Shown here piece by piece: positions 3,081-20,708 of a stretch of DNA of 64,000 nt. The stretch's first letter is position 1, and every line of letters begins with the position of its first letter. The notes below the pieces were generated by a model. That model was not told the DNA's origin, did not search any database, and saw only the letters and a program-made list of their open reading frames with translations. The DNA comes from Exiguobacterium sp. (GTDB lineage: Bacteria; Bacillota; Bacilli; Exiguobacteriales; Exiguobacteriaceae). Position numbers and translations under genes: made by a program. The stretch is from positions 62,001 through 126,000 of the forward strand of contig NZ_JAFIFD010000013.1 in NCBI RefSeq assembly GCF_020832205.1, written 5' to 3'.

Positions 3081-3551
3081 TTACTCCACCACCTTAATTT
3101 TAGTCGCCATCATGTGATGGCCCGTACCGCAGTATTCATTGCAAAGGATCAAGAACTCTCCCGTTTCCTTGAACGTATACGTGAGCGAGTTGATATGTCC
3201 CGGGACGACCATCATGTTGACGGGCGTACCGACGAGCTGAAAGCCGTGAACGACGTCAGGTGACGTGACGAGGAACGTCACTTTTGCGCCTTTCGGAATC
3301 TCGACATTACCTGGCGTGAACGTGAACGCCTGGGCGACCATGACGAGTTCATACTCGTTGTCCCCGATTTTGTGAAGACCAGGGTTATCGAACGGTGCCG
3401 TCTGATGTACTTTCGCCGGGTCGACCAAGTCGGCGTCTGACGCCGGTTGGTTGCCAGCTGCGAACGCGGATACGCCGAGGACGGCCAAAAACACGGCCAA
3501 TAAGATGATGCCAAACACTAACCAATATTTTTCAAGTTTATGAATATGCAA
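3081..3551 (-). CDS. ba3-type cytochrome c oxidase subunit II
   Basis: A 156-residue protein with one N-terminal transmembrane helix and an outward-facing cupredoxin domain carrying the binuclear CuA centre that receives electrons from cytochrome c. All CuA ligands are present: the His of SPDVVHGF and the Cys, Glu, Cys, His and Met of LCNEYCGTGHHMM near the C terminus. The start is a TTG with AGGAG nine bases upstream. It lies between subunit IIa (24 bp upstream) and subunit I (2 bp downstream). Its CuA site needs a copper delivery route, which is relevant to the orphan nos genes at 14.8-18 kb. Confidence 0.93.
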   Translation of the reverse strand: MHIHKLEKYWLVFGIILLAVFLAVLGVSAFAAGNQPASDADLVDPAKVHQTAPFDNPGLHKIGDNEYELVMVAQAFTFTPGNVEIPKGAKVTFLVTSPDVVHGFQLVGTPVNMMVVPGHINSLTYTFKETGEFLILCNEYCGTGHHMMATKIKVVE

Positions 3552-3882: not shown

Positions 3883-4596
3883 TTATAATCGGCAAATCCC
3901 AGCCGGGCAACCTTCACAGTGGCATAGTTCTTTTAGAAACTCGAGGTCATGGATTGCGATCGTGTTTGAAGACGTCGTCAAGACGCCATCTTTGCGCCAT
4001 TGACTCATCAAGCGATTGACCGTCTCCCGCGGGGCCCCGATCAGTTGACCGAGCTCACCATCGGACGGATGTCTCGGAATGACGATTGCCCCGTCTTCTT
4101 CGACACCGTGCATCGCAGCCATCCGGAGCAACGTCGAGGCGAGCGCGCCAGGTTTCCCGTAAAGGAGAAGGTCACGCACTTTCATCTCCGAATGTTTCCG
4201 CATCATCGACGTCCAACGGATAATCTCACCCGCGAACCGGATATCCTGCTGCATGAGCGTTTCAAGTTCTTGTTTTGAAAGGGTCCCGATAACACTCTCC
4301 TCGGTCGTCTCAATGCTATAGGAGCTCGGATAGGATTCGACGATGTCGAACTCTCCGAAGAAGTCATCCGACCCGAATAAGAACATGACGAGCGGATTGC
4401 CTTTTTTCGTGATCTTTGTAAATTTGACCGAACCACTCTTTATATAAAAGAACTTGTCACATTTCTCGCCTTCCCAACAGACGATGCTCGCTTTCGGATA
4501 AACTTGCGTCGTCATCATCCCGAGCAACAGCTGTTTCGTCTCATCTGAGAAGATAAAACTGTTCGGTTGCGTCGTGCCACATTTCGTCGACATCAT
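3883..4596 (-). CDS. fnr: Fnr-type oxygen-responsive transcription regulator
   Basis: A 237-residue Crp/Fnr protein with an N-terminal cyclic-nucleotide-binding-like beta barrel (about 30-115), a dimer helix, and a winged helix with recognition segment GAPRETVNRLMSQW (about 187-200). The C terminus holds Cys 225, 227, 230 and 235. The spacing C-x2-C-x4-C at 227/230/235 is that of B. subtilis Fnr, where these Cys plus an Asp bind a [4Fe-4S] cluster; Asp142 here is the matching candidate. It should therefore act as an oxygen sensor rather than a cAMP receptor. The ATG at 4596 is chosen for its GGAGG site. A TATAAT box lies at 4661-4656. Confidence 0.88.
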   Translation of the reverse strand: MMSTKCGTTQPNSFIFSDETKQLLLGMMTTQVYPKASIVCWEGEKCDKFFYIKSGSVKFTKITKKGNPLVMFLFGSDDFFGEFDIVESYPSSYSIETTEESVIGTLSKQELETLMQQDIRFAGEIIRWTSMMRKHSEMKVRDLLLYGKPGALASTLLRMAAMHGVEEDGAIVIPRHPSDGELGQLIGAPRETVNRLMSQWRKDGVLTTSSNTIAIHDLEFLKELCHCEGCPAGICRL

Positions 4597-4725
4597 TTCC
4601 TGCTCCCTCCATCGTTCATTCACTTGAATGTCTCGTACGTTCATTGTATGGGTTTATTATACAGGAGAAGAGGACGTTTCATCACAAAAGTATGTGACAT
4701 TTCAAACAATCTTCTATTTTTCCAG

Positions 4726-10843: not shown

Positions 10844-12052
10844 TCATTCATACGAGCGAAGGAGTTGGACGATGCCAAACTCATGGCTCCAATCTTTCGC
10901 CACATCGATTGGTGTCATCCCGTCGTCGTTCTCGATGGTGACATCGGCTCCGCTTTCGAGCAACAGCACCAACGATTCATAATCCATTCCATCGTTGTAT
11001 AACAAGTTATGAAGCGGTGTGTCGCCATAACTGTCTTGCATGTTGACGTCTGCCCCGTTCGCCAACTCTTTGCGGATCGCGTCCGCACCCGCGTTGTCAT
11101 ACGTCAACTGTTGGAGCGGCTCTTCCGACATCGTACCGGCGAATCCTCCGCCAAACGACGGCGAGGCGAGGCTAGTGAACCCGTCGCTCATGACGAGCCA
11201 CGCGATGAGGGCCCCGTTCAACACGACCGTCATGGCAATTGTTCCGATGATCGAAGCTTTGACGTATCCGGCCGTCTTGAATACCGGCACATTCACTTCG
11301 CCGGCTGCCGTAGCGATGGCGGCGATCCGTTTCGGTAACGTCGGGTGTGTCGAAATGAGCTCGCTGTACTTGGCGATAAAGCCGTTCTCGCGGCTCGCTT
11401 CTTGTAAATAATCGAACTCGTTCACTTCCTTGGCGAGCGTGCCGCCGACAGCGAGGACGGTAAGCGCCTGTTTCGCTGCCGTTTCGTCTTGAATATAGTG
11501 AGCCGCCATTCGGTCGCACGTATATTCGCAAGCCCGTGAGTATGCCGCCCCGAGAAACGGGACGACATTGCCGAGCAAGACGAGCCATTGCTTTTGAACA
11601 TGGTTGCGACGGATATGTGCCAGTTCATGGGCGATAATGAACTCGACTTCTTTCACTTGACCGTTCCGTGACAATTCGACGATGTCTGAATACAAAATGA
11701 TCATATTCTTTTGGAAGAACCGTGTCGCAAACGCGTTCAAGATGCCCCCGGCTTGCAAGATGTAGACGTCCGGCAATAGGCGGATGCCCATGCCTTGCCC
11801 GACGCGTTGATACGTCTCATACAAATCAGTGAATTGATGTTCCGTCACTTTGACCCCGTTCGTCCGGATATAGCCGATTTGAATCCAGTGGGCGAACATC
11901 GAAAACGACACGATGAAGCCGATGATCACTAAAAAGAAGCCGAGCGGTGCGATCGTCAAGACGATGGCTAAAAGAATTGTCATCACGCTCGAGGCGACGA
12001 GCAAGCCGAAATACAAGTTTTCGTGCTTATGGATAAGTTTTGTTTGATTCAC
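10844..12052 (-). CDS. M48-family metalloprotease fused to ankyrin repeats
   Basis: About 402 residues. Two N-terminal hydrophobic segments are followed by an M48 (HtpX/Ste24-like) catalytic domain with the zinc motif HELAH (His142, Glu143, His146) and a third-ligand Glu in RACEYTCDR. Another membrane segment (SIIGTIAMTVVLNGALIAWLV) comes next, then a C-terminal block with two ankyrin-type repeats (GADVNMQDSYGDTPLHNLL and GADVTIENDDGMTPIDVA). M48 enzymes cleave misfolded or specific membrane proteins; the ankyrin part could recruit substrates. The GTG at 12052 follows AAGGGG and is preferred to the ATG at 12076. Confidence 0.85.
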   Translation of the reverse strand: MNQTKLIHKHENLYFGLLVASSVMTILLAIVLTIAPLGFFLVIIGFIVSFSMFAHWIQIGYIRTNGVKVTEHQFTDLYETYQRVGQGMGIRLLPDVYILQAGGILNAFATRFFQKNMIILYSDIVELSRNGQVKEVEFIIAHELAHIRRNHVQKQWLVLLGNVVPFLGAAYSRACEYTCDRMAAHYIQDETAAKQALTVLAVGGTLAKEVNEFDYLQEASRENGFIAKYSELISTHPTLPKRIAAIATAAGEVNVPVFKTAGYVKASIIGTIAMTVVLNGALIAWLVMSDGFTSLASPSFGGGFAGTMSEEPLQQLTYDNAGADAIRKELANGADVNMQDSYGDTPLHNLLYNDGMDYESLVLLLESGADVTIENDDGMTPIDVAKDWSHEFGIVQLLRSYE

Positions 12053-12114
12053 GTAATATTCCCCTTCATTTTCCAATTAACAACATAATTATAGCGTCCA
12101 CTTTCTAAAAAGCA

Positions 12115-14808: not shown

Positions 14809-15525
14809 TTATTTTGTGCGAGAGACGCCCGTTTGACAAGCATCAACTTCTATCCCAAAAAAGAATCGACGAATTTCGTCGTACGCGGTTTCATCATGAA
14901 CGACGACTCGGCCGACGAGGTGACCGGTTTCGAGCACCCATACTTCATCGGCTAACATCGCGGCGACGTCCAGCTGATGCGTCGACAAGACAATCGTCGC
15001 CCCCCGGTCCGCCTCCTCGCGCAACAGCTGACTCAAGGAACGCATCCATAGCGGGTCGAGTCCATTCGTCGGCTCGTCGAGCAACAAAATATCGGGTGTC
15101 GTGACGAGTGCTTGAGCCAACAACAGCCGTTGCCGCATTCCTTTCGACAGTTCCCCGACCCGTTGCCCCATCTTATCTTCGAGTCCGACGCGCCGTAACA
15201 ACGACACGTCCGGCTTCACTCGTTGGAGCAGAGCGTAATAGACATACGTCTCTTTGACCGTCCAAGACGGGTCGAACGCGAAATCGTCTGGCATGTAGCC
15301 AAACGTTTGATTGAACCCGCTGCGACGGCGTGTCGTCTTTCCGTTTAAAGAGATGTGGCCGACACTCGGGGTAATCGTGCCGTTCATCAAATTGAGAAGG
15401 GTCGACTTCCCGGCACCGTTGCTGCCACATAAGGCAACGACATGTCCGGCCTCAATCGTCCCATCGAGCGGATGGAGCGACCAAGTCGATCCATAACGTT
15501 TCCCGACTTGTTTCAATTCAATCAT
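14809..15525 (-). CDS. nosF: NosF-like ABC transporter ATP-binding protein
   Basis: A 238-residue ABC ATPase with Walker A (CGSNGAGKST), Q-loop region, signature (ELSKGMRQRLLLAQAL), Walker B (DILLLDEPTNGLDP) and switch His (STHQ). It overlaps the 3' end of the permease gene by 8 bp and is the last gene of a nosD-nosL-nosY-nosF operon, so it should power the NosDFY complex, which supplies material for assembling copper sites outside the cell. The ATG at 15525 has GGAGG six bases before. Confidence 0.85.
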   Translation of the reverse strand: MIELKQVGKRYGSTWSLHPLDGTIEAGHVVALCGSNGAGKSTLLNLMNGTITPSVGHISLNGKTTRRRSGFNQTFGYMPDDFAFDPSWTVKETYVYYALLQRVKPDVSLLRRVGLEDKMGQRVGELSKGMRQRLLLAQALVTTPDILLLDEPTNGLDPLWMRSLSQLLREEADRGATIVLSTHQLDVAAMLADEVWVLETGHLVGRVVVHDETAYDEIRRFFFGIEVDACQTGVSRTK

Positions 15526-16315
15526 AGCGTCCCTCCTGACGTAACGTGAACGTCGCCCCAATCAGCATGAACAGGATGACGCTGCCAATCGCAATCACGA
15601 CGGAGACGGCACCGAGCGGTTGACTGAGCCAACCGATAAACGTCTCATAGATTGCCCCGAACAAGTCTGGCGCGGACGAGACGGCGCTCACCCAGACACG
15701 CAACAGTTCGAATCCATTCAAATAGAGAAGCCCTACCATCGCATTCGCTTGAGTACCGTACGGTAACCACGTCAGCGTCGCCACAAGAAGCGTTGGCCAA
15801 AGTAAAATCATGACGACCCAAAACATGAAAGAAAAGAGCACCGCGCGAAGCCGAGTGCGTCCCACCACTCCAATCAACGTGCCAATCCCTGCCGCATAAG
15901 CGGTGAGCCCGATGGCATACCCCCATAACGTGAGCCACCCCTCAAACGACAAGTCGACGAGAAACGAGGCAAGCGAGAAAGCGAGCGTGATGACGATTGC
16001 TTGCGCAGCCAGGAAGGCGCTATATCGCACGAAGACGATCCGGCCCATCGCAATCGGATATGTCGAAAGAAGGCGCAGGCGCTTCGATTCACGTTCATTC
16101 GCCCACTTGAGCGACGTCGTCAACAAGACGAAGAGCGGCAACACGAGACCGATCACCGTCACGAGCGTCGCATTGATGTTCGTATACACCGTCGCCACCG
16201 GCAGCGCCTGTCCGAGTCCCCCGAGCAAGACGAGTGTGAACAGCCAGGCGATGAGGAAGGCGTAACTCTCCTTTTGGCGCAGCGCTCGCGACCATTCCAT
16301 TCGCCAAAACATCAC
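15518..16315 (-). CDS. nosY: NosY-like ABC transporter permease
   Basis: A 265-residue protein with about six hydrophobic helices and the ABC-2 permease pattern, including a conserved cytoplasmic segment (SLKWANERESKRLRLLSTYP) and a C-terminal helix before TLRQEGRYD. It is placed between nosL and nosF and fits NosY, the membrane part of NosDFY. The GTG at 16315 starts directly after the nosL stop, and an ATG follows at 16312. No clear ribosome site is seen, so translation is probably coupled to nosL. Confidence 0.83.
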   Translation of the reverse strand: MMFWRMEWSRALRQKESYAFLIAWLFTLVLLGGLGQALPVATVYTNINATLVTVIGLVLPLFVLLTTSLKWANERESKRLRLLSTYPIAMGRIVFVRYSAFLAAQAIVITLAFSLASFLVDLSFEGWLTLWGYAIGLTAYAAGIGTLIGVVGRTRLRAVLFSFMFWVVMILLWPTLLVATLTWLPYGTQANAMVGLLYLNGFELLRVWVSAVSSAPDLFGAIYETFIGWLSQPLGAVSVVIAIGSVILFMLIGATFTLRQEGRYD

Positions 16316-16879
16316 TTAGTGCCCATGACCGTCAGAAGATGATTCCGAGTGGGCGTCGCTCATCTCGTCCGCTTCTGCCTCATCATCGGAGTGCATCTTC
16401 TTATGCTCCTTCATTTCTCCGCGTTCCCACGTGTGCTCTTTTAAATCAGCGAACTCCATCACCGTGCCGCCGTTCTCGTCCACGTAAGCTTCCGCATCAG
16501 CCGCTTCGGCGAATGACAAAATGTTATAAGCCATCGGTGTCTTCGACGCTTTGTCATAGACGAACGTCCCGTCTTCAAGTTCGATCCAATCTTTCGTCTG
16601 ATAGTCTTTCACGTACAGCGCCGCGATGTCGGCTTCTTTCTGTTCAGGGTACCAGTCGCGCATTAAGCAACCGATGTCATCGAAGGCGTACCCTTTCCCG
16701 TTCGTCATGATCGCTTCAGCGGCGAACTGTTCGTCCATGACTTTCATGTTGCACACTTCACACTCGGTCTCGCCCCATGTCACGTCAAACGGCTCGGCCG
16801 AGGCGTTCGAACAAGCACCTAGTGCAAGTGTTAAGCCCGTGACGGCAAGTAATCCTGTCATCTTTTTATACGTCTTCAT
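16316..16879 (-). CDS. nosL: NosL-like copper chaperone lipoprotein
   Basis: A 187-residue lipoprotein (signal MKTYKKMTGLLAVTGLTL, lipobox LGAC at Cys23). The NosL core has Cys40, Cys43 and Met45 (CEVCNMKV), where known NosL proteins bind Cu(I), and a further Cys71 (DIGCLMRDW). The C terminus extends into a His/Asp/Glu-rich tail with KKMHSDDEAEADEM and ends DGHGH, a likely extra metal-binding tail. The ATG overlaps the nosD stop (ATGA) and has GGAGG eight bases before. NosL normally loads the CuZ site of nitrous oxide reductase, which is absent from this window. Confidence 0.88.
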   Translation of the reverse strand: MKTYKKMTGLLAVTGLTLALGACSNASAEPFDVTWGETECEVCNMKVMDEQFAAEAIMTNGKGYAFDDIGCLMRDWYPEQKEADIAALYVKDYQTKDWIELEDGTFVYDKASKTPMAYNILSFAEAADAEAYVDENGGTVMEFADLKEHTWERGEMKEHKKMHSDDEAEADEMSDAHSESSSDGHGH

Positions 16880-18051
16880 AATCGTTTCCTCCCAAATCCC
16901 CATAATAAAATCATTAAACTGCTCATCACGACCGCTCCGACCGACCCGTTCCATGTGGCGTGTTTCGTCTCGACACGAGGGCCGACATCTGTGAGGACGA
17001 CGTCATCGGGACTGCGAAGCACATGTTCGAGTACGGTCAGTCCCGGTGAACCGTACAACAGTTCGAGCGCTTCGTATGTATCTGCCAATAAGTACAGATA
17101 AGGGTCGGACCGGAACGGAAGATCACTTAAGCCGTCGCCGGTCACGTCAAGCGTCTGTCCGCCCCAATCATTTCCTTTGACGTCGTTATGTGCCGACTCG
17201 AACGAGAGGACCGGATAGCGGTTTCCCGTCAAATCGTTTCCTTCCATCGTCATTTCGTTTGCCCGCTTGAAGCGCAAACCGATGTCGTTCCCGTTGATGC
17301 CGTTGTCATAGATGAGCGTCCAATCCGACTTTTCAGCGTAGAGACCGACCCGGTTTCCAAAAATCGCGTTCGCACGGACGGTCGTCTCGAGTGCTTCAAA
17401 CAACATGATCCCAGTCGCCGTCGCGCCAGTTTGATCGTGAATTTGACCGTTCTCGATACGGACGCGTTCTGTTCCCATGATCATCGCCCCCGCTCCATTG
17501 CCGTGAAGGTTTGGAGAACTGATGACGACGTCTTTTGGGAACATGAGATGAATCCCATATCGTGAGTCCGTCACGAGCGGACGCGTCATCTGATGCATCG
17601 AACCGTTTTCCACGTAAATCCCGTCTCGCGCGTGACGGATGATCGCTCCAATCACGACACACGCCTCACTGTCGAACAGCGAGATGCCTTCGGCTCTTCC
17701 ATTCCCGACGATCAGCGGACGAACAAGACGGACGCCGTAACTGTTCGCGACTTTTATCCCGGCACCTTGAACGGATACGTCAATCAATTGATGTCCTAAC
17801 CCCGTCACCTCAATGGCGGGGACTTCTGCTTGCCCGCACTGCTCAATCGTCACGTTTTCAAGCAACGCCCCTGTCCCTTCCATTTGAAACGCAGCTTGGT
17901 CGCAACTGACGAAACGTTTTCCAGAACCGTCGAACGTCTCATTCGATTTGATGACGATCGGCGCTTCAAGCTGAACGGTTTCCATGTCTTCCTCTGCCCC
18001 GACAGGCGTCGCCAACATGAGCAACGCGACAATCCATACGTATCGTTTCAT
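16876..18051 (-). CDS. nosD: NosD-like extracytoplasmic beta-helix protein
   Basis: A 391-residue protein with signal peptide (MKRYVWIVALLMLATPVGA), a parallel beta-helix of right-handed repeats (about 25-310; many NxxxxNxxG turns such as NAIFGNRVGLY and NGINGNDIGLR), and a C-terminal membrane anchor (GAVVMSSLMILLWGFG) before RKRL. The family partners NosF and NosY. It is the first gene of the orphan nos operon. A TACAAT -10 and a CsoR-like palindrome lie upstream. Confidence 0.87.
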   Translation of the reverse strand: MKRYVWIVALLMLATPVGAEEDMETVQLEAPIVIKSNETFDGSGKRFVSCDQAAFQMEGTGALLENVTIEQCGQAEVPAIEVTGLGHQLIDVSVQGAGIKVANSYGVRLVRPLIVGNGRAEGISLFDSEACVVIGAIIRHARDGIYVENGSMHQMTRPLVTDSRYGIHLMFPKDVVISSPNLHGNGAGAMIMGTERVRIENGQIHDQTGATATGIMLFEALETTVRANAIFGNRVGLYAEKSDWTLIYDNGINGNDIGLRFKRANEMTMEGNDLTGNRYPVLSFESAHNDVKGNDWGGQTLDVTGDGLSDLPFRSDPYLYLLADTYEALELLYGSPGLTVLEHVLRSPDDVVLTDVGPRVETKHATWNGSVGAVVMSSLMILLWGFGRKRL

Positions 18052-18083
18052 AACCCCTCCTTGTTGAACCGCTTACAGAACAT

Positions 18084-18108
18084 ATTGTACGAAAACCCAA
18101 GGGGGTAT
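18084..18108 (-). promoter_or_regulatory. Promoter region of the nos operon with a CsoR-like palindrome
   Basis: On the minus strand ATACCC-N4-GGGTTT (18108-18093) lies immediately upstream of TACAAT (18089-18084). It resembles the GC-rich operators of copper-sensing CsoR proteins (ATACCC...GGGTAT). The resemblance is by eye, and the regulator gene is not in the window. Confidence 0.4.
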
Positions 18109-18146
18109 GTGTGTTGTTTATATGGGATTCCTGTGACAATTTCTTC

Positions 18147-18190
18147 ATAAAAAAAACACAAACGGCAAAGGGGTCATTTTGCCGTTCGTG
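18147..18190 (-). terminator. Terminator of the sugar-binding protein gene
   Basis: The stem CACGAACGGCAAA/TTTGCCGTTTGTG is followed by eight T on the minus strand. Confidence 0.9.
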
Positions 18191-19684: not shown

Positions 19685-20665
19685 TTACAACAAGCTGATG
19701 CCGGCTTCTTCACACGCCGTGACCATTTCAGCCGGCCAAACCGACGACTGGACTTCACCGATGTGACGGGCCCGGAGCAAGTACATCGCGACACGGGACT
19801 GTCCGATTCCACCGCCGATTGTAAGCGGCAAGCGCCCTTCAAGAACGGCTTGATGGAACGGATACTTCCGTTTTTCTTCTGCATCGGCAATCTCGAGTTG
19901 GGCAGCGAGTGCCGCTTCGTCGACACGAATACCCATCGATGACAACTCGAACGCTGACTCGAGCTCCGGATGCCAAACGAGAATATCGCCGTTGAGTGAC
20001 CAGTCATCGTAGTCAGCCGCACGTCCGTCATGTTTCTCACCAGAAGCGAGCGCACCGCCAATTTGTGAGATGAACACTGCACCATACTCTTTACAAATCG
20101 CGCTTTCACGATCTTTTGAAGAAAGCGTCGGGTACGTGTCTTCGAGCTCTTGACTCGTGATGAAATGAATCGCTTCCGGAAGAATCGCTTCGATGCCGTA
20201 TGTCGCCTCGACCGTCTTCTCCGTTTCGAGAAGAGCCGCATAAATCGATTCAACGGTCGCTTTCAAATACTCGGTCGTGCGCTCTTCACGGGCGATGACG
20301 CGCTCCCAGTCCCACTGATCGACGTGAAGCGAGTGCGTCGCATCGAGCTCTTCATCACGACGGATGGCGCGCATTTGTGTGTAAAGACCTTCACCGACCT
20401 CAAATCCATAACGACCGAGCGCTTCCCGCTTCCATTTCGCGAGCGACTGGACGATTTCGAGCTCGTGGCCCGGATATTGAGTATCGAACTGAATGATGCG
20501 TTCCACCCCGTTCAAATGATCGTTCACCCCGCTCGCTGACGTGACGAACAATGGAGCTTGGACTTGCGTGAGGCCGAGCGCCGTGCTGAACTTCTCTTCG
20601 AACGTTGCCTTTACCGTCGTGATCGCCTGTTGTCTTTCCTTCATCATGCTTGTTGCTGTTGTCAT
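19685..20665 (-). CDS. asnA: Aspartate--ammonia ligase (asparagine synthetase A)
   Basis: A 326-residue enzyme making asparagine from aspartate, ammonia and ATP, with the class II tRNA-synthetase-like fold. Recognisable segments are [61 protein letters not shown] and the C-terminal [16 protein letters not shown]. The ATG at 20665 has GGAGG eight bases before. It is controlled by a T-box leader upstream, so expression should rise when tRNA-Asn is uncharged. It lies between the sugar permeases and their binding protein. Confidence 0.95.
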
Positions 20666-20708
20666 TTTGTCTTCCTCCAATTGTGGGATATTTGGGACGG
20701 AGCAATAG

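Follow-up and report, generated by a model that had tools for sequence, protein, structure and literature searches.

A nosDLYF operon of Exiguobacterium belongs to a nosZ-independent branch and may encode a copper relay

NosD and NosL are annotated as nitrous oxide reductase (NosZ) factors, NosL being regarded as dedicated to the CuZ centre. The closest solved system is NosDFY-NosL of Pseudomonas stutzeri, to which the PDB entries 7o0y, 7osf and 7znq presumably belong. Here, we describe a nosDLYF cluster of Exiguobacterium sp. (NCBI RefSeq assembly GCF_020832205.1), which lies on a stretch of 64,000 nucleotides (contig NZ_JAFIFD010000013.1, positions 62,001 to 126,000 of the forward strand) that was analyzed as a whole and is called the window below. 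It shares with the P. stutzeri system all four components, a NosD beta-helix with an HxM motif and the next Met, and a NosL with CxxCxM and a distal Met. It differs from that system in that no nosZ was found in Exiguobacterium, NosD has Met instead of Ala at position 190 and comprises 391 instead of 436 amino acids, and the gene order is D-L-Y-F. The nosZ-linked nosDYF clusters of the same class, taken as Bacilli, encode homologous NosD, NosY and NosF, whereas 18 of 20 lack nosL, and they form a separate branch with Ala or Thr at NosD position 190. Of the same kind as the Exiguobacterium cluster are the nosZ-less nosDFYL of Parageobacillus thermoglucosidasius and nosD4L4Y4F4 of Bacillus azotoformans (PMC13068155, PMC3475470; articles are cited by PMC number, and for excerpts that bear on the point). 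For these, the copper nitrite reductase NirK was proposed as client, whereas NirK was not found in the Exiguobacterium genomes (0/19). Thus, single nosZ-less clusters are already in print, along with suggestions of alternative copper clients (PMC13068155, PMC3475470). In the literature searched, with subscription journals mostly outside it, neither the Met signature in NosD reported here nor a separate class independent of nosZ was found described.

The cluster consists of the following genes:

16876..18051, minus strand: nosD, secreted, membrane-anchored right-handed beta-helix protein of 391 amino acids (PF05048/PF13229, beta-helix in the AlphaFold model)
16316..16879, minus strand: nosL, lipoprotein (C23) of 187 amino acids with CxxCxM, M116 and an acidic His/Met tail (PF05573)
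15518..16315, minus strand: nosY, ABC-2 type permease (open reading frame, NosY profile, weak PF12679 match)
14809..15525, minus strand: nosF, ATP-binding cassette (ABC) ATPase of 238 amino acids (PF00005)

An earlier note, made from the DNA of the window, had claimed four adjacent, intact nosDLYF genes, and this was borne out: they form a tight, intact operon on the minus strand (14809-18051). Pfam recognizes NosD (PF05048, 87.7 bits), NosL (PF05573, 72.6 bits, above the cut-off) and the ABC ATPase (PF00005, 110 bits). NosY has ABC2_membrane_2 as its only Pfam match, with 22.3 bits and thus under the cut-off of 27.2, and was identified because its sequence groups with the NosY-position proteins of 41/42 loci from other genomes and also fits a profile built from such proteins. 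TIGR04247, the nitrous oxide reductase subfamily model, gives NosD 152.8 bits, below its 300-bit cut-off. Both overlaps mentioned in the note can be read in the DNA, an ATGA at 16879-16876 between nosD and nosL and eight bases, ATGATTGA, at 15525-15518 between nosY and nosF, while the ends of nosL and nosY abut without overlap. The start of nosL at 16879 (187 amino acids) is likely, and so is the ATG at 15525 for nosF, whose reading frame itself opens at 15561. The surroundings are also as described, with a DHA2 major facilitator superfamily (MFS) gene downstream, a sugar ABC importer upstream and the CuA subunit of the ba3 oxidase (3081-3551) 11.3 kb away.

NosL contains the lipobox Cys, the CxM Cu(I) motif and a second Met; the meaning of CxxCxM as Cu(I) residues is taken from PMC6530538. 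The Cys, Cys and Met of CxxCxM, M116 and C23 are invariant in 13/13 sequences of the genus. Outside the genus, among clusters without a linked nosZ (unlinked loci), the two Cys, the Met and Met116 are kept in 41/41 and C23 in 40/41. The His/Asp/Glu-rich tail, which the note had pointed out as an addition to NosL, is real, but its length and composition vary within the genus, and similar tails are common, if not universal, among the unlinked NosL proteins of the class and also occur in P. stutzeri NosL. The predicted NosL structure had a mean predicted local distance difference test (pLDDT) of 45 and was not used.

The suggestion that nosZ might lie elsewhere in the same genome (2.78 Mb, 57 contigs, completeness 100) was not upheld: in a search with the profile TIGR04244 nosZ was not found, the sole match (35 bits, profile positions 535-624) being to the CuA domain of the ba3 subunit encoded at 3081-3551. 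Likewise, nosZ was not found in 19/19 genomes of the genus, each of which has a single TIGR04244 match limited to the C-terminal CuA part. As a positive control, the profile was run on 398 genomes of the class, an even sample of a larger group. It found full-length NosZ in 20 (427-516 bits) and NosZ in pieces in one more, and none of these matches reached the 625-bit cut-off of the model. Since strong NosZ is recovered in 21/398 genomes, the search method works. Because nosZ was not found and the genes are intact and under purifying selection (see below), a recipient other than NosZ is needed, as the note had suggested.

Beyond Exiguobacterium, NosL matches occur in 124/398 genomes of the class and are near full-length in 102, that is, the best match, read from the table by the author, starts at profile position 8 or before, with E-values up to 5.1e-9. 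The remaining 22 genomes, three of which have nosZ (G046, G051, G150), show weak, mostly C-terminal matches and were left out of the 102. Among these 102, nosZ was not found in 94 and is present in eight (G029, G031, G110, G133, G171, G246, G260, G261). Since 94/102 such genomes are without nosZ, surveys of denitrification can be misled by the annotation of NosL and NosD as nitrous oxide reductase factors, which also hides a widespread copper pathway. In 20 of the 21 NosZ genomes a D-Y-F set surrounds NosZ, and nosL is included in only two of these 20 clusters; excerpts of PMC3475470 and PMC11388526 likewise give nosL in a minority of the nosZ clusters of Bacillota. As 18 of the 20 nosZ-linked clusters are without nosL (L127-L145), the copper for CuZ may therefore reach them by another route.

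For comparison, 13 of the 102 NosL genomes were from the genus, and stretches of 40 others were fetched (G246 proved nosZ-linked), followed by 20 more, all chosen by the author either for spread over families or for the strongest matches. Of the 41 unlinked loci (39 from the first 40 class genomes and two from Paenibacillus plasmids), 40 show the order D-L-Y-F, one of them (L120) with an extra gene between D and L, while L085 is without nosD. Trees of NosD (n = 73; L084, a duplicate of L125, the deletion remnant L023 and L085 were left out) and NosY (n = 74) split all nosZ-linked proteins from the unlinked ones at a single branch, with an SH-like approximate likelihood ratio test (SH-aLRT) support of 97 and 81, respectively. 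In both, the labels linked and unlinked change once, versus about 17.7 times in shuffles, and 0/500 shuffles were as low. These are quick trees, in which the program flagged some long branches, chiefly for NosY, and their root is not fixed by the data; because midpoint rooting puts some unlinked families nearer the nosZ-linked branch, the unlinked set may be paraphyletic. In five cases, the genome with the unlinked locus has a nosZ cluster elsewhere as well, and the unlinked NosD proteins of these five still fall outside the nosZ-linked branch. The Exiguobacterium cluster has the order D-L-Y-F, lies outside the nosZ-linked branch and has Met at NosD position 190. To judge from these features, it belongs to a separate, widespread nosZ-independent branch in Firmicutes. 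A second NosL-family gene beside or near the cluster was observed in L107, L108, L109, L111, L113, L114, L116-L118, L120 and L121.

The two kinds of cluster also differ in the following region of NosD:

17476..17550, minus strand: codons H168, M170, M190 and M192 of nosD, which may form a Cu(I) site across two neighboring rungs of the beta-helix

H168, M170 and M192 are invariant in 73/73 NosD proteins. At position 190, 52 of 53 unlinked proteins have Met and one has Gln, whereas the 20 nosZ-linked ones have Ala (18) or Thr (2) and never Met (0/20). In a held-out set of 20 further unlinked NosD proteins of the class, which includes close kin of the first set, this residue is Met in 18 and Gln in two. 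Held-out nosZ-linked NosD proteins of plasmids from other phyla (eight of nine annotated loci, picked from 95 NosD and four NosL records listed) have Ala (7) or Tyr (1) and no Met (0/8), and the solved NosD in 7o0y has Ala at the matching position. Therefore, one residue predicts in this class whether a cluster is linked to nosZ or not. The signature is claimed for the class only, because the NosD of Thermus brockianus (L191) carries Ala at this position, and nosZ is not listed within the 10 kb covered there. In the AlphaFold model of NosD, the mean pLDDT is 77, and blocks over residues 21-200 have 83-98. Strands 165-170 and 187-192 form consecutive rungs in this model, and residues 168 and 190 as well as 170 and 192 are each 22 residues apart. 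This step is predicted to stack His168 on residue 190 and Met170 on Met192, with Met190 one turn above His168, and the four residues H168, M170, M190 and M192 may bind copper. The best PDB match of the model is NosD of NosDFYL 7osf with a template modelling (TM) score of 0.51, other beta-helix proteins being close behind.

Synteny extends in 19/19 genomes of the genus from the ba3 oxidase genes through to the sugar importer, and the cluster at this site is intact in 13, absent in five and a deletion remnant in one (G012, locus L023), which retains the start of nosD and the end of nosF, while nosL and nosY were not found. On a tree of nine flanking genes the presence pattern corresponds to five changes, four of them forced by well supported branches, and its clustering does not exceed that of shuffled labels (as low in 306-314 of 500). 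Where present, the operon is under purifying selection: the ratio of nonsynonymous to synonymous substitution rates (dN/dS) in five pairs is 0.09-0.13 for nosD, 0.02-0.11 for nosL, 0.07-0.18 for nosY and 0.07-0.15 for nosF, similar to the neighboring gsdh gene (0.10-0.15). The estimate failed for sbp in two pairs and for dha2 in one, and one pair has a dS above 1. For L020 and L022 (G016, G007), the dS of nosDLYF is 0.11-0.22 versus 0.30-0.57 for flanking genes, as if the operon had recently been exchanged at a fixed site. Nine Exiguobacterium loci, the only ones that a wide NosL contig scan gave, carry the same NosL with 67-78% identity. All 19 genomes encode two CuA subunits (a ba3 type with 90-99% identity and a caa3 type) and two strong SCO proteins. 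No correlation of the cluster with SCO, COX2 or the multicopper oxidase was found within these 19 genomes; as CuA subunits, SCO and multicopper oxidase do not track the cluster, no tested copper enzyme strictly requires it. The patchy pattern would fit a role that matters only under copper scarcity, and with close species that have or lack the operon, the genus is a natural experiment.

We propose that NosDLYF is a NosZ-independent relay for copper on the external side of the membrane. The lipoprotein NosL would hold Cu(I) via CxxCxM and the distal Met and hand it to NosD, whose beta-helix would receive it at the His/Met/Met/Met site. ATP hydrolysis by NosF, passed on via NosY, would then make NosD deliver the copper to a copper protein outside the cytoplasm. 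Haem-copper oxidases (CuA of caa3 and ba3, possibly CuB) would be the most likely clients, and the relay could be an auxiliary route for them beside SCO under copper scarcity. That copper is the cargo we consider highly probable, and a transfer from NosL to NosD and then to the client probable, whereas oxidases as clients are a tentative assignment, somewhat short of an even chance. The explanation as a whole, an ATP-driven extracytoplasmic Cu(I) relay with oxidases as the most likely clients, is about evenly balanced between right and wrong. It is even possible, if rather doubtful, that nosDLYF with Met190 encodes an ATP-driven machine which loads copper for Gram-positive respiration in general, that the NosZ version is a specialised one, and that the Met/Ala switch at NosD position 190 records the change of client; if so, a general machine would so far have been studied only through its NosZ-dedicated cousin.

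Support for this proposal comes from the neighbors of the cluster in other genomes, which suggest respiratory copper sites. Genes for SCO, TlpA-like, YtkA-like or CopC-CopD proteins are located within 4 kb of 12/41 unlinked clusters, for example in the order SCO-YtkA-D-L-Y-F-TlpA-CopCD in L105. Altogether, 19 such genes lie in the 319 kb inside 4 kb, whereas the outer 327 kb of these loci contain none, nor were any found with the same profiles near the 20 nosZ-linked clusters. In a Pfam scan of the nearest neighbors (150 of 160 proteins, ten being dropped), the commonest partners were NosL (10), response regulators (7), thioredoxin-fold proteins of the AhpC-TSA family (7) and YtkA (3). To our knowledge, the Sco/CtaK/YcnJ copper pathway of Bacillus subtilis contains no ABC ATPase, unlike nosDLYF. 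Like the proposed relay, it supplies extracytoplasmic copper sites, and homologues of its components adjoin some unlinked nosDLYF clusters (PMC9145763, PMC13344008). According to excerpts of these articles, Sco and CtaK (YtkA) serve CuA assembly in B. subtilis, as TlpA does in Bradyrhizobium (PMC9145763), and YcnJ, a CopC-CopD-YtkA protein, feeds the B. subtilis oxidases under starvation (PMC13344008). Moreover, NosL of copper-limited Paracoccus is reported to be needed for both CuA and CuZ of nitrous oxide reductase, the nosL mutant showing a growth phenotype when copper is limiting and an enzyme that is then without CuA and CuZ (PMC6530538).

Several observations weigh against oxidases as the clients. 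No such copper-assembly gene adjoins 29/41 unlinked clusters or the clusters of the genus, and a search of the 4 kb around all 41 unlinked clusters gave neither COX1 nor COX2; one distant homologue of oxidase subunit I (23% identity) lies 4.5 kb off in L095. The neighbor profiles were seeded from proteins near the clusters, which favors hits inside 4 kb, and those of SCO and TlpA cross-hit, so that only their union was counted; therefore the enrichment is supportive, not proof. Furthermore, FixH-family and TlpA genes adjoin a nosZ-linked cluster in Deinococcus ficus, and a YtkA-domain protein is reported to stand in for NosL in the nosZ cluster of Geobacillus (PMC13068155), so that such neighbors indicate copper-site assembly and not oxidases only. 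With sufficient copper, NosL acts on CuZ and not on CuA, as stated in excerpts of PMC6530538 and PMC7558416. The constraint on nosDLYF is weaker than that on the oxidase genes (dN/dS 0.00-0.03), and the class-wide co-occurrence test covered one client, NirK. Finally, the six genomes of the genus without an intact cluster retain ba3, the caa3-type CuA subunit and both SCO genes, from which it follows that ba3 does not strictly depend on the cluster. The idea of the note that the cluster serves another copper enzyme, such as the CuA subunit of ba3, is thus weakened as regards a specific ba3 link and partly supported for the copper supply of oxidases in general, by the 12/41 neighborhoods and by Paracoccus NosL. 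The cluster may help ba3 conditionally, under copper scarcity.

A single other extracytoplasmic cuproprotein could be served instead, for example the multicopper oxidase, an enzyme like SodC or a beta-propeller protein not yet recognised as such, which we regard as unlikely. A beta-propeller peroxidase was raised as a candidate for Parageobacillus in PMC13068155, and a YncE-like beta-propeller family is present in 3/42 fetched loci but absent from most; the genes L097:7132-8112 and L120:12859-13839 lie beside unlinked nosDLYF clusters and may encode a client or a sensor. The Exiguobacterium genome does encode a multicopper oxidase (L161:4307-5803), but this enzyme does not track the cluster (matches in 17/19 genomes, 16 of them strong; absent or weak in G006 and G016, which have nos, and in G015, which does not) and adjoins a Cu-type P-ATPase (by eye), as in copper resistance. 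Together with a lipoprotein gene, the two (L161:3701-7943; names given by eye, the P-ATPase being His-rich) are a likely copper-resistance set. The system might also protect against copper stress or sense it, extracting or exporting the metal. In favor of this, a GC-rich dyad, which we take to resemble a CsoR-type operator, precedes nosD, two-component genes adjoin some unlinked clusters, and the B. subtilis control has a NosL-family match, presumably the copper regulator YcnK. However, the dyad is not shared outside the genus (0/41), the right half of the csoR-copA promoter of the same genome differs from it, csoR, copA, copZ and a CopB-like ATPase gene (all but csoR by eye) are present elsewhere in the genome, and the neighbors of the cluster in other genomes are acquisition or assembly genes, so a stress function is quite unlikely.

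NirK as client was suggested in excerpts of PMC13068155 and PMC3475470, and a strong NirK-like match (E < 1e-40, the author's threshold; no match in the class reached the cut-off of the model) occurs in 14/102 genomes with near full-length NosL versus 24/296 others. However, 82 of the 94 nosZ-lacking NosL genomes have no strong NirK-like match (12/94 have one), and 0/19 genomes of the genus have a match at 1e-20. For Exiguobacterium, NirK was therefore rejected, unless the profile misses it, and it is extremely improbable that the relay serves this enzyme. Equally far-fetched is a relic of a nos operon after recent loss of nosZ, to which the name of NosD and the patchiness of the cluster in the genus could point: selection persists (dN/dS 0.02-0.18), the lineage stands apart from the nosZ-linked clusters and has the order D-L-Y-F instead of D-Y-F, and nosZ was not found in any of the 19 genomes. 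As far as sequence allows, recent loss is thus refuted. NosDFY has also been suggested to supply sulfide for CuZ (PMC6530538), and sulfur species or another metal might be moved here instead of copper. Since there is no NosZ, and hence no known CuZ centre, there is no need for such sulfide, and NosL and the His/Met-rich site of NosD would rather favor Cu(I), making this very unlikely.

Upstream of nosD, the following elements were delineated in the genus:

18052..18151, minus strand: conserved promoter region (from the genus alignment; the functions of the boxes are guesses)
18151-18132, minus strand: long element TTTATGAAGAAAYTGTCACA, conserved in the genus
18106-18095, minus strand: GC dyad ACCC-N4-GGGT, conserved in the genus
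18089-18084, minus strand: -10 box TACAAT, conserved in the genus
18077-18070, minus strand: cre-like TGTAAGCG, conserved in the genus

About 100 bases before nosD look strikingly conserved in an alignment of 13 regions, including that of the deletion genome G012, with G006 shown separately. With up to three mismatches allowed, the long element matches the window once, and of the 14 matches to an overlapping 19-base pattern in the genome, one is exact and 13 carry three mismatches. A Rex- or Fnr-type reading of the conserved element was dropped because of the wrong spacing (by eye). Four tested patterns were absent before the unlinked clusters of other genera, with 0/41 each for the CsoR-, CopY- and cre-like ones; for this reason the promoter of the genus was not used to infer function. 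At the other end of the operon, TTGTCA and CAAAAT with a 17-base spacer (14811-14839) lie inside the 3' end of nosF and are retained in nos-lacking genomes, and the DHA2 MFS gene likely has its own promoter there.

Elsewhere in the window, a gene for an M48 metallopeptidase with a C-terminal ankyrin domain is located at 10844-12076. A Crp/Fnr-type regulator (family assigned by eye) with a C-terminal Cys cluster is encoded at 3883-4644 and adjoins the ba3 oxidase genes, and an AsnA-like asparagine synthetase gene (by eye) lies at 19685-20680 within the sugar ABC importer set.

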